Shown here: one piece after another, positions 8,965-54,224 of the stretch | Position numbering within the stretch: position 1 is the stretch's first letter | How the letters are laid out: each line of letters starts with the position of its first letter | DNA from: an uncultured Hippea sp. | Lineage (GTDB): Bacteria; Campylobacterota_A; Desulfurellia; JAADFJ01 | Reading direction: 5' to 3' | Assembly: GCA_913009315.1 (NCBI GenBank) | Contig: CAJVZA010000003.1 | Location: 1-54,849 of the forward strand | Length of the DNA stretch: 54,849 nucleotides | Translations under genes and position numbers: made by a program | Notes under the pieces: model-generated | Database searches by the model: none | Told to the model about the DNA's origin: nothing | What the model saw: only the letters and a program-made list of their open reading frames with translations

Positions 8965-10713
8965 TTATGATACTTTGTACATAAGAAGGTCGCCTTTTGT
9001 TATTATGCCTAACAGTCTTTTGGGATTATCTTCATCTACAACAGGGAGATGTGAAATTCCGTTTTCCCGCATCTTCCCGAGTGCCTGATCAAGAGTTTCA
9101 TAGGGGTATGTCAAGATCAGATTTTTGCTGCAGGCGTCAAATGCGGATAATGCCATATCGCTGTTTTTTTCTCTGTGCTGCAATACGTCTCTGCCGCTTA
9201 TTATGCCCACCAGTTCATTTTTATCGTTCATAACGGGGAATCCTTCATGGCCTGTTTTCATGATCTTGTTGCTTATATCTTGAATTGATTCATACATATT
9301 TGCAGTTATCACATCTCTTATCATCACGTTTTCGACCGTTTCATTCTTCAGAACGTTTATTTCAAGGCCATGAGGTATAAAGACTCCCCGTCTGGCAAGT
9401 TTTTCCGTATAGATCGTATTTTTAGCAAAGATACGGCTTGTGATGTCGGCTAAAACGCATGCGAATATTAGCGGGATTATGATACTGTAGTCACGAGTCA
9501 TTTCAAAAACCATTATAATTGATGTCAATGTTGCGCGACTTGTTCCTGCAAATACAGCAGCCATACCTACCAGTCCATACGCAGGATAAGGGGCGCTCAT
9601 GTGAGGAAATAACAAATTGATAATAATACCAAAAAATGCTCCAAATACTCCTCCGATAAATAGCGAAGGCGCAAATACGCCGCCCGATCCTCCTGAGCCG
9701 AGTGTTAATGACAATGCAAACATTTTAGCGATTAAAAGTGCAAACAGGGTAAGCATAAGGTAAACAGTCGGGCTGCCATAATTAGGACTGAGTATGTTGC
9801 CTATAGTTTTATATCCTACACCAAGTATCTGAGGAAATTGGAGTGCTATAATCCCAAGTAACATGCCTCCGATAGCAGGTTTGAAAACGGGATGGACTTT
9901 TATCTTATCAAACAGATCTTCTATGCGGTAAAGCAGTTTAAATTCCAAAATTCCGATAAATCCTGCAGCAATACCCATTATAAGGTAAAATAGGAGTTCG
10001 TATACCGATTTAAAGTGATATGCCGGAATAATAAATATGGGGTCGCTTCCTAAAAATAATCTTGATATAATAGTTGCGAAAACAGATGATGTAGCCAGAG
10101 GAACAAACGATTCTGTTCTAAATTCGAGTAGAATTAACTCAATGGAAAAAATTATGCCTGCCAGCGGAGCATTAAATGTTGCAGCTATACCTGCAGTTGC
10201 TCCACAGCCTACTAATATCTTGCGGTCAGTAATAGAAAGTTTTAAAAATTGGCTTACAGCTGATCCAAACGCGCTTCCTATTTGAACTATGGGTCCTTCC
10301 CTTCCTGCCGACCCTCCTGTTCCAAGGCATATTCCGGAGGCCAGTGTTTTGGCAATTACAACTCGCGGACGAATTATGCCCTGTTTTTTATACATAGCTT
10401 CCATTACTTCAGGTACACCATGTCCTTTTGCTTCAGTGGCGTAGTAATAGGTAATGAATCCTACAATAAGACCTCCCATTGCAGGCGGTATGATTACTAA
10501 ATATCCTAAGCCATTGCTTACAGGCGAGACAAAATAAATTGATAATTTGTGCCAAAATGATAGGTTATTTATGCTGTAATACAACCACCTGAATAAAACT
10601 GCACCAAATCCGCCGACAATACCGACCGAAACTGCCATAAGATTTAATCTTAGATTAATATAAAGACTTTTTTTCGGAAACCCCTTGCCAATAGATGCTA
10701 TACTATATTTCAT
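8965..10713 (-). CDS. ClC-family chloride channel or H+/Cl- antiporter with C-terminal CBS pair
   Basis: A 582-residue integral membrane protein of the voltage-gated chloride channel family, expected in the inner membrane. The selectivity-filter motifs are GREGPIVQIGS (near residues 136-146; its Glu is the gating glutamate of exchangers) and GSGGSGGVFAPSLFIGG (near 343-359). About ten hydrophobic segments precede residue 440. Two CBS domains follow from about 455 to the end (for example GHEGFPVMNDKNELVGIISG and GISHLPVVDEDN). The GREGP filter is that of chloride transporters, not of the fluoride-specific ClC-F group. It has its own promoter, divergent from the rpsB operon, and a good ribosome binding site (AAGGGG). 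Confidence 0.93.
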   Translation of the reverse strand: MKYSIASIGKGFPKKSLYINLRLNLMAVSVGIVGGFGAVLFRWLYYSINNLSFWHKLSIYFVSPVSNGLGYLVIIPPAMGGLIVGFITYYYATEAKGHGVPEVMEAMYKKQGIIRPRVVIAKTLASGICLGTGGSAGREGPIVQIGSAFGSAVSQFLKLSITDRKILVGCGATAGIAATFNAPLAGIIFSIELILLEFRTESFVPLATSSVFATIISRLFLGSDPIFIIPAYHFKSVYELLFYLIMGIAAGFIGILEFKLLYRIEDLFDKIKVHPVFKPAIGGMLLGIIALQFPQILGVGYKTIGNILSPNYGSPTVYLMLTLFALLIAKMFALSLTLGSGGSGGVFAPSLFIGGVFGAFFGIIINLLFPHMSAPYPAYGLVGMAAVFAGTSRATLTSIIMVFEMTRDYSIIIPLIFACVLADITSRIFAKNTIYTEKLARRGVFIPHGLEINVLKNETVENVMIRDVITANMYESIQDISNKIMKTGHEGFPVMNDKNELVGIISGRDVLQHREKNSDMALSAFDACSKNLILTYPYETLDQALGKMRENGISHLPVVDEDNPKRLLGIITKGDLLMYKVS

Positions 10714-51406: not shown

Positions 51407-51435
51407 TTGACAAGCAAAACCAAACAAAATAGAAT
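51407..51435 (+). promoter_or_regulatory. Sigma70-type promoter of the riboswitch-dynamin unit
   Basis: TTGACA (51407-51412), a 17-base spacer and TAGAAT (51430-51435). Transcription would start near 51442, a few bases before the riboswitch aptamer. Confidence 0.75.
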
Positions 51436-51447
51436 ATCACTTTATTT

Positions 51448-51516
51448 GCGGTGATGGAGTTCGCCCAATCGCCTTTTTAGGCTGATAACTCCTGCAAACA
51501 ACAGTTATAAGGAGTT
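51448..51516 (+). promoter_or_regulatory. Fluoride riboswitch (crcB motif) with its expression platform
   Basis: The aptamer runs from GCGGTGATGGAGTTCGCC (51448-51465) through CCAATCGCC to GGCTGATAACTCCTGC (51479-51494). This matches the crcB consensus GGCGATGGAGTTCGCC ... GCTGATGACTCC. GGTGA pairs with TCGCC, GGAGTT (51455-51460) with AACTCC (51487-51492) as the long-range helix, and GCC/GGC closes the small hairpin. In the expression platform AACTCCT (51487-51493) is also perfectly complementary to AGGAGTT (51510-51516), the ribosome binding site of the next gene. Ligand binding would free the site, suggesting translational activation by fluoride. Confidence 0.88.
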
Positions 51517-51519
51517 GGC

Positions 51520-53301
51520 ATGTCGGGAAACCATATTGGCAAGAGCAAAACAGCCGAATATGATAAAGAAGATTTTTTGCATAACACCATAAAGTGCTCT
51601 ATAGATGTTCTTGCTGAATCGGATATTGATTTTGAGCAGGAGATTTTTAAACTTAAAGCAATAGATGATCGTTTGGAAAATGAACGCTTTCATCTCGCCG
51701 TTTTGGGGCAGTTCAAACGCGGAAAAAGTACCTTTGTCAACGCATTGATGGGCGAAGAAATCCTGCCCTCTTCTGTTTTGCCTCTTACTTCTATTCCAAC
51801 TTATATTCAGTTCGGCAAACAGCGTTCGGTTGAGATATCCTTTGATGACAAAAGTGATAAAGAAACTCTGACCGATGATTCCGCAAGCAATCTAAACAGT
51901 TTTCTTGCACGATATGTAACCGAATCATCGAACTCTAAAAATCACCTTAATGTATCGTATGTCAATGTTTTTTATCCTTCCGAACTCCTTGAGAACGGTA
52001 TTGTACTTATAGATACGCCGGGAATAGGTTCCGTGCACGAACATAATACTGAAGCAACACTCAATTTTCTGCCCCAGTGCGACGCAGCAATTTTTGTAGT
52101 TTCCGTTGACCCTCCAATAACAAAAACAGAGATTGAATTTTTAAAAAAGATAGAGCAGAGTATTCCCAAGTTATTTTTCGTTTTGAATAAAATTGATTAT
52201 TTAAAAGGGCAGGATCTAACGCTTTCGATAGAGTTTTTAAAAAAGACGCTCTATAACCGCAATCATGCAAACATTGATAATATCTCTATTTATCCTGTCT
52301 CCGCTCTGATGGGCATCAATGCTGTGAAAGAAAATGATGTACAGAAATTAAAAGAAAGCGGAATTTATGATTTTAAGACTGAACTAATCAATTTTTTTAA
52401 AGATAAAAAGAAGGCGCTGCTCAACGAAGCGCTTCAGAAAAAAACAGATAATATTCTGAAAGCAGTTAGAATGAAGATTGATCTCGCAATTAAAGCGCAG
52501 AGAATGCCGCTGGAGGAACTAAATAACTGCCTTAATCTGTTCAACGAAAAGCTTTCTGAAGTAGAGACTCAAAAGGTTGTTGCCAGTGATCTTTTGAGCG
52601 GAGACAAGAGACGTTTGACGGCATCATTAGAAGAGTATGCCGAAAAGTTACGCGGCGAGGCAAGGACATATTTAAAAACAATTATGAAAGAAGCCTTCGC
52701 AAAAAACGGTTCGGGCGAAATTGATTACGACACAATTTATAATGCGGTTGCGGAACCTATTCCATCATACTTTGAACATAAATTCGGTGAGCTTTTCGAT
52801 GAATTTAATTCCAGGATAACCGAAATATTAAATCGTCATAATCAAAAATTAAATACTCTGACGCAATCTGTCTGGCAAGCGGCGGCAGATATTTTCAGCA
52901 TCAGCTATTATCATTTTGAAGGTTCCGGAACTATTTCCGGCAGATACAAACCGTATTGGACTACACACAAATGGGATACAAGCTTTACCCCAAACCCGGA
53001 AGGTATGCTCGAGCATTTTTTGCCGCAGAAAATGAAGAGACTGAGTATCGCAAAACGTGTCAATAAACAGATAGATCTAATTGTAATGCATAATGTGGAG
53101 AACCTTCGCTTTTCCCTGATTCAGAATATAAATACTCTCTTTGCCTCTTTTGCGCAGACATTTGATCAGAATATTGAGGAAACCATATCAAATATAAAAA
53201 ATGTTATATCTGAAACGGTTGAAAAATATAAAAATAGAACAGAATCGTCAGAGAAAAGTATCGTGAATCTCCAATCGGTTTTAACTCGTCTCATGCGCTA
53301 A
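51520..53301 (+). CDS. Dynamin-family large GTPase
   Basis: A 593-residue bacterial dynamin-like protein. G1 is GQFKRGKST (residues 63-71), the G2 threonine is in VLPLTSIPTYIQFG, G3 is DTPGIGS (near 165), and G4 is NKIDYL (near 223). Long helical regions follow (for example LNNCLNLFNEKLSEVETQKV). A GRYKPYWTTHKWDTSFTPNP segment lies near 475 and a coiled-coil-like C-terminus ends the protein. No clear transmembrane helix is seen, so membrane contact may be peripheral. Bacterial dynamins remodel or seal membranes under stress. AAGGAGTT precedes the ATG and is the sequence targeted by the upstream fluoride riboswitch. Confidence 0.9.
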   Translation: MSGNHIGKSKTAEYDKEDFLHNTIKCSIDVLAESDIDFEQEIFKLKAIDDRLENERFHLAVLGQFKRGKSTFVNALMGEEILPSSVLPLTSIPTYIQFGKQRSVEISFDDKSDKETLTDDSASNLNSFLARYVTESSNSKNHLNVSYVNVFYPSELLENGIVLIDTPGIGSVHEHNTEATLNFLPQCDAAIFVVSVDPPITKTEIEFLKKIEQSIPKLFFVLNKIDYLKGQDLTLSIEFLKKTLYNRNHANIDNISIYPVSALMGINAVKENDVQKLKESGIYDFKTELINFFKDKKKALLNEALQKKTDNILKAVRMKIDLAIKAQRMPLEELNNCLNLFNEKLSEVETQKVVASDLLSGDKRRLTASLEEYAEKLRGEARTYLKTIMKEAFAKNGSGEIDYDTIYNAVAEPIPSYFEHKFGELFDEFNSRITEILNRHNQKLNTLTQSVWQAAADIFSISYYHFEGSGTISGRYKPYWTTHKWDTSFTPNPEGMLEHFLPQKMKRLSIAKRVNKQIDLIVMHNVENLRFSLIQNINTLFASFAQTFDQNIEETISNIKNVISETVEKYKNRTESSEKSIVNLQSVLTRLMR

Positions 53302-53680: not shown

Positions 53681-53968
53681 TTAGAACTTTTTGTAAACGT
53701 GAGGATGCTTACCAATCATCACCAGATTAAGATAATGTCTATCAATTTTAAAAACCAACAACCAATCATTTTTAACATGGATTATCTCATAGGATTGCAT
53801 ATTTCCAGATAATATATGCCTCTTGAAACGTTTATCTATAGGTTGCCCATTTAATAAGTTATCGACAATTTTTTTTAACAGATTAAAATCTTTTGCAGAA
53901 TAGTTGCCGGATTTTTTATCTCTTTGAATATCCTTTTTGAAAGATTTCTCAATTCTTATTTCAAGCAC
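53681..53968 (-). CDS. YafQ-type toxin (RelE superfamily)
   Basis: A 95-residue basic protein: LEIRIEKSFKKDIQRDKKSG at the N-terminus, then LLNGQPIDKRFKRHILSGNM and a C-terminal HVKNDWLLVFKIDRHYLNLV with a final His (GKHPHVYKKF). This is the YafQ pattern of ribosome-dependent mRNA endonucleases. It starts 4 bases after the upstream antitoxin gene. Confidence 0.83.
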   Translation of the reverse strand: MLEIRIEKSFKKDIQRDKKSGNYSAKDFNLLKKIVDNLLNGQPIDKRFKRHILSGNMQSYEIIHVKNDWLLVFKIDRHYLNLVMIGKHPHVYKKF

Positions 53969-53972
53969 TTAC

Positions 53973-54224
53973 TTATATGCCTAAATCCTCCGCAAGCTCC
54001 TTTGCATCTTTATATATAGAACTGTTTCGATTATTGTCTATATTTTTAATTCTTGAGCTCAGTTCATCAGTTATAGAAAGATCAAAAGGAAATCTTTTCT
54101 CCATAGCAACCTTTGCCAAAAATATGTTAGTGGCATCACCAAAGCTCATACCAAAAGCAGCAAAAACCTTCTTGGCTTCTCTATAAAATTTATCTTCAAC
54201 TCGCACACTTGTTTGAATTTTCAA
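53973..54224 (-). CDS. RelB/DinJ family antitoxin
   Basis: An 83-residue protein with the DinJ/RelB ribbon-helix-helix start (QTSVRVEDKFYREAKKVFAA) and the conserved FGMSFGDATNIFLAKVAMEK segment followed by RFPF. The C-terminal KDAKELAEDLGI should bind the toxin. TTG is the start, supported by AAGGAGGG just upstream. First gene of the pair. Confidence 0.85.
   Translation of the reverse strand: MKIQTSVRVEDKFYREAKKVFAAFGMSFGDATNIFLAKVAMEKRFPFDLSITDELSSRIKNIDNNRNSSIYKDAKELAEDLGI

Follow-up and report, generated by a model that had tools for sequence, protein, structure and literature searches.

A predicted translational fluoride riboswitch ahead of a dynamin-like GTPase in an uncultured Hippea sp. 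and its recurrence across a family of bacterial and archaeal dynamins

The genes described as targets of fluoride riboswitches include mutS, K+ and Cl- transport genes and formate hydrogenlyase (Weinberg 2010, PMC2864571) as well as CrcB, CLC-F, Na+/H+ antiporter, pyrophosphatase, enolase, haloacid dehalogenase-fold proteins and others (PMC11139923). HF crosses the membrane into the cell and reduces the proton-motive force (PMC11139923). Bacterial dynamins have been described in membrane surveillance, fission and fusion, and PMC8844932 connects Bacillus subtilis DynA with membrane surveillance and phage tolerance. A dynamin is absent from the fluoride-riboswitch targets named in PMC2864571 and PMC11139923, and the initial annotation of the locus, which listed no dynamin among the crcB-motif targets, is consistent with these open-literature target lists. 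No relevant work linking dynamins to the fluoride riboswitch, to crcB or to resistance against fluoride was found in a search of the open-access literature (the target list and supplement of Baker 2012 lie outside this scope).

The DNA analyzed here (the window) is the whole 54,849-nt stretch from an uncultured Hippea sp., and the features of the locus under study are the following:

51407..51435, + strand: sigma-70-type promoter, TTGACA - 17 nt - TAGAAT (11/12 consensus positions)
51441..51501, + strand: fluoride riboswitch aptamer (crcB motif, RF01734; covariance-model match)
51456..51461, + strand: 5' strand of the aptamer pseudoknot, GGAGTT (sequence; position in the RF01734 alignment)
51487..51493, + strand: AACTCCT, the 3' pseudoknot strand of the aptamer, which doubles as anti-Shine-Dalgarno strand in the predicted OFF hairpin (sequence; minimum-energy fold; co-variation across leaders)
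51510..51516, + strand: AGGAGTT, the dynamin gene's Shine-Dalgarno, hidden in the predicted OFF state (sequence; fold)
51520..53301, + strand: dynamin-like GTPase, 593 aa, apparently a single-gene unit (ORF; Dynamin_N; AlphaFold model)

A cmscan search with all of Rfam identified a single fluoride aptamer in the window, which covers model positions 1-64 completely and exceeds the curated threshold (47.5 bits, gathering score 34; E 4e-10). P1, P3 and the pseudoknot are all present, with GGAGTT pairing to AACTCC (51487-51492), and relatives vary both pseudoknot strands jointly (GGAGTT/AACTCC to GAGGTT/AACCTC). Rfam's own fluoride model was applied throughout; the P3 loop aligned badly among 27 aptamers (alignment A2). 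The initial annotation had placed a crcB-motif aptamer at 51448-51494 and had named the lack of a significant RF01734 hit as an outcome that would speak against it; the strong covariance match bears the aptamer out, with GGAGTT located one base to the right of the 51455-51460 given there. The aptamer begins a few bases 3' of the TTGACA-17-TAGAAT sequence and appears to have its own promoter, as had been proposed; the chance expectation for even weaker promoter matches (9 or more of 12 positions) in this stretch is 0.4.

The aptamer ends 18 nt ahead of the dynamin gene and the sequence from the aptamer to the start codon reads AACTCCTGCAAACAACAGTTATAAGGAGTTGGCATG. The seven-base pairing between AACTCCT and the ribosome site, noticed in the initial annotation, was found again at the same positions: the two strands are perfect complements over 7 bp, and the unconstrained minimum-energy fold (RNAfold, which is unable to form the pseudoknot) holds exactly this helix plus one U-G pair, at an unremarkable fold energy (z -1.3). 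Since AACTCCT is shared by the pseudoknot and the Shine-Dalgarno helix, the ligand-free RNA would hide the ribosome site and the fluoride-bound RNA would expose it. Without fluoride, AACTCCT would pair with AGGAGTT; Mg-bound fluoride would stabilize the aptamer and draw AACTCCT into the pseudoknot with GGAGTT, leaving the ribosome site open for the dynamin to be made. No terminator-like site was found in the window leader, which is consistent with translational control, and control by a transcription terminator was rejected for the window on this ground.

The two strands of the putative OFF helix change together among related leaders. Within the genus of the window the leaders carry AACTCCT/AGGAGTT, and a sister family has AACCTCT(ACC) as its aptamer strand and, changed in step, (GGT)GGAGGT as its Shine-Dalgarno. 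Pseudoknot strands were more complementary to their own leaders than in shuffled pairings, both among 13 dynamin leaders of the class (permutation p 1e-4) and among 68 family leaders (p 5e-5), p values that overstate independence because the sequences are related; Wilcoxon tests of own-leader complementarity gave p 0.003-0.02 (0.01 for the 13 and 0.02 for the 68 leaders), and part of the complementarity is built in through the anti-Shine-Dalgarno-like CTCC that is conserved in every fluoride aptamer. A crude classification of the family leader platforms resulted in 38 that are Shine-Dalgarno-like, 11 that are terminator-like and 19 that are unclear. The co-variation of pseudoknot strand and Shine-Dalgarno across leaders supports the earlier proposal that fluoride binding would open the ribosome site. 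Overall, the window leader should act as a translational ON switch, the direction of switching being deduced from its alternative pairings; fluoride regulation of the window dynamin is strongly supported by these sequence features, and we infer an in vivo induction of the gene by fluoride.

The 593-codon ORF behind the leader matches Dynamin_N (PF00350) with E 1.5e-30 and 106.9 bits (Pfam cut-off 27), confirming the dynamin-like GTPase of 593 residues that had been annotated initially. The motifs G1 GQFKRGKS, G3 DTPG and G4 NKID are intact, and the corresponding columns (GQxKRGKS, DTPG, NKxD) are essentially invariant across 46 family members, so the protein should be active as a GTPase. The AlphaFold model (mean pLDDT 82, pTM 0.69) displays a full-length dynamin shape with long helices, including a helical neck and trunk that continue past the GTPase domain. 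Its closest solved fold is IniA (6j72; Z 23.1, rmsd 8.0 over 513 residues), followed here by BDLP (2j69; Z 20.0, rmsd 9.5 over 527 residues) and by mitofusin matches that span about 330 residues; the predicted fold is thus that of a full-length bacterial dynamin, similar to IniA, BDLP and mitofusin. The tip (459-502), where a membrane-binding paddle is expected, contains conserved aromatic residues and is poorly modelled (pLDDT <50 at 470-492). Two divergent tRNA genes lie 5' of the unit (cmscan) and no co-directional ORF of at least 80 aa was found 3' of the dynamin gene in the rest of the window, making the dynamin apparently the only gene of its unit. On the minus strand, two small adjoining ORFs (53681-54224) were judged by eye to be toxin-antitoxin-like (RelE/YafQ-like and RelB/DinJ-like).

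The 80 most similar loci in the GTDB collection were chosen by dynamin alignment, ignoring the leaders; the seed alignment was drawn from riboswitch-linked loci and may lean towards linked subfamilies. These loci (34-46% identity in the best segment) belong to the Bacillota, Planctomycetes, Atribacterota, Deltaproteobacteria, Latescibacterota, Spirochaetes, Acidobacteria, Omnitrophota and methanogenic archaea, and RF01734 is present in 48/50 and 27/30 of the homologue genomes. A same-strand RF01734 match lies upstream of the dynamin at 68 of the 80 loci, or 68 of the 75 for which upstream sequence exists; homologous dynamins thus usually carry the motif, the consistent lack of which had been named in the initial annotation as an outcome that would speak against its reading. 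Among the 12 loci without a switch, five have no more than 240 nt of sequence upstream and one (L108) contains a sub-threshold match of 28.7 bits at the expected place; RF01734 was not detectable upstream of the family members L061, L085, L096, L112, L114 and L083. The dynamin is the first gene behind the riboswitch in 58 of 67 loci. Across 40 homologue genomes, 59 Dynamin_N genes were found at E 1e-8, of which 39 have a switch within 1.1 kb. Most of the remaining genes are paralogues of other subfamilies (family profile <290 bits, against >400 for members), and a few of these paralogues are also linked to a switch or arranged in tandem. Distant dynamin subfamilies were observed approximately 0.25-0.7 kb behind fluoride riboswitches (L148:2086-3771, L129:177-2444, L139:5717-7885, L130:3227-5158), some of them beside a main family member. 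From the sequence comparison, the window gene is a member of a widespread family of dynamin-like proteins in bacteria and methanogenic archaea that is mostly under a fluoride riboswitch.

Gene clusters around the 80 dynamins contain enolase (19 loci), a Na+/H+ antiporter (14, with a second cluster of 4), an MFS transporter (12), a MutS-like protein (11), a universal stress protein (7), CrcB (6) and DUF190 (6), and in methanogens an alpha-alpha toroid protein is coupled to the dynamin (6 loci). Co-location with known fluoride genes holds in the relatives, whereas the window dynamin stands alone. One genome outside the class contains a riboswitch, DUF6062, dynamin, DUF190, DUF190 and CrcB in a row. 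In one genome (L138:483-2561) DUF6062 is joined to the C-terminal portion of a dynamin, and in another (L048:1757-2410) it forms a separate gene just 5' of the dynamin in a fluoride operon, which suggests that it is a dynamin partner. In three methanogen loci (L100, L106 and L115) the gene of the alpha-alpha toroid (prenyltransferase-like) protein shares a few bases with the end of the dynamin gene, which makes joint translation of the two proteins probable. At L058, L065 and L122 the riboswitch and the dynamin are separated by two short MutS-like genes in a row (about 510-550 aa).

The source genome (87.6% complete) contains two fluoride riboswitches. The second (L002 / L185; C17:22652-22715, minus strand) precedes an operon that was judged by eye to resemble a membrane-bound hydrogenase or formate hydrogenlyase, the latter being a known type of target (PMC2864571), and most of the class shows this arrangement again. 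Among 60 surveyed relatives, a dynamin was found directly after a riboswitch in 2 further genomes of the same genus, in 9 genomes of one sister family and in 1 genome of another. The sister-family dynamins share 26-30% identity with the window protein and fall into a separate clade (FastTree; several long branches), and the window dynamin is nearer to that of Moorella (41-42%). Two distant dynamins, low in mutual identity and in separate clades, are thus found under the same switch in a single class. In 25 class genomes, among them several that are 99-100% complete, no CrcB (Fluc) was found; all 25 contain ClC-family genes, whose motifs are insufficient for a safe CLC-F assignment. Neither of the ClC-family genes of the source genome adjoins a riboswitch, and one of them (window 9433-10476, minus strand) has the canonical GREGP motif and is extended at its C-terminus.

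A further 99 genomes were sampled evenly and without selection from one phylum other than that of the window; RF01734 occurs in 43 of them, and 17 matches to the family profile lie in 16. A same-strand switch lies 46-230 nt ahead of 14 of the 17 matches; the remaining three are at a contig edge (G173), weak (G196:C281) or without a switch (G212:C31). All 16 dynamin genomes contain a fluoride riboswitch, as compared with 27 of the 83 others (Fisher p 2e-7). Only 6 of 39 CrcB genes in the same 99 genomes have a riboswitch within about 1.5 kb upstream (hand count), matching the figure of roughly 15% in a 2024 review (PMC11139923). With 14 of 17 dynamins and 6 of 39 CrcB genes linked, the dynamin family is tied to the switch more tightly than the exporter in the same genomes. 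A depletion of CrcB in dynamin-carrying genomes is not clear (4/16 vs 34/83), and a role of the dynamin as a CrcB substitute is unsupported by these counts. Back-to-back divergent pairs of fluoride riboswitches, roughly 100-200 nt apart, were observed at L066, L118, G183:C13 and G219:C12; in the last pair one riboswitch faces a dynamin and the other CrcB.

Taken together, the data favor, with a probability of about 0.82, a translational ON fluoride riboswitch that controls a bacterial dynamin-like protein of the fluoride-stress regulon. That the motif in this leader is degenerate or a chance resemblance that binds no fluoride is extremely unlikely: a score of 47.5 bits is moderate, and the joining region lacks two model positions and the P3 loop lacks one, but the score is well over the curated threshold, the aptamers of homologous leaders score up to 55-61 bits, aptamer and leader are almost identical in a genome of the same genus (G001), and G002 has the same arrangement at 56% protein identity. 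The dynamin might also be a passenger in fluoride gene islands, with the riboswitch serving the rest of a fluoride operon, given that some dynamins are second to fourth in operons after enolase, CrcB-DUF190, MutS-like or antiporter genes. This is very improbable and largely refuted by the predominance of dynamins as the first gene behind their own riboswitch; the apparently solitary dynamin of the window and the closer switch linkage of dynamins than of CrcB likewise speak against it.

The main competing explanation takes its model from enzyme replacement. Enolase and pyrophosphatase are overproduced under fluoride to outrun inhibition, and a dynamin with an everyday role could be overmade in the same manner to make up for GTPase that is trapped by fluoride-metal complexes (GDP with AlFx, BeFx or MgFx). 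The presence of enolase and MutS-like ATPases in the same operons agrees with this idea, as do dynamin-family structures that are trapped with GDP-AlFx according to their entry titles (OPA1, 8eew; Vps1, 6djq). Enolase and pyrophosphatase are, however, housekeeping enzymes that must keep running, whereas the family dynamin is missing from most genomes of the sampled phylum (present in 16/99) and is usually the only dynamin of its genome (in about three quarters of the 40 homologue genomes just one Dynamin_N gene is found at E 1e-8), which argues that it is not a housekeeping protein. Its presence furthermore tracks that of the riboswitch, and the explanation is on balance unlikely. The dynamin is very probably part of the microbial fluoride response, in a role that was not found in the open literature. 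The entry of HF through the membrane and the membrane roles of dynamins make membrane remodelling, protection or repair under fluoride the most likely function by analogy: the protein would remodel the membrane by fusion, fission or scaffolding and would protect or repair the inner membrane as HF enters and the proton gradient falls. A more specific and rather doubtful version is a dedicated fluoride effector, in which GDP-metal-fluoride might lock the riboswitch-induced GTPase in an assembled state on the membrane, the polymer limiting HF entry or proton leak or resealing the membrane. Fluoride control of the family would assign a stimulus to a large group of uncharacterized bacterial and archaeal dynamins, point, past the enzymes and exporters already studied, to the membrane as a target of fluoride toxicity, and provide research on bacterial dynamins with an inducible system that has a simple chemical input.

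Among known dynamins, B. subtilis DynA resembles the window protein in its link to membrane stress (PMC8844932, which describes no link to fluoride) and differs in sequence: its NCBIfam model has 1187 positions, two stretches of which match the window protein far below the cut-off. Nostoc BDLP (2j68), mycobacterial IniA (6j72), the Campylobacter-type DLP pair (5owv) and SynDLP (7zw6) share with the window family a GTPase domain and a long helical neck and trunk along the chain, but the window family is only about 14-18% identical to them over the whole chain, forms a separate clade, and is distinguished by a conserved aromatic tip motif (PYWVTHKW-like, residues about 478-485) and by the fluoride riboswitch leader; none of its members is named in the open literature covered. 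IniA, named as isoniazid-inducible, sets a precedent for the stress induction of a dynamin. The window leader itself agrees with described fluoride riboswitches (RF01734) in its full aptamer, its position directly upstream of the gene and its predicted ON-switch geometry, and differs from them in that the gene it appears to control encodes a dynamin-like GTPase.
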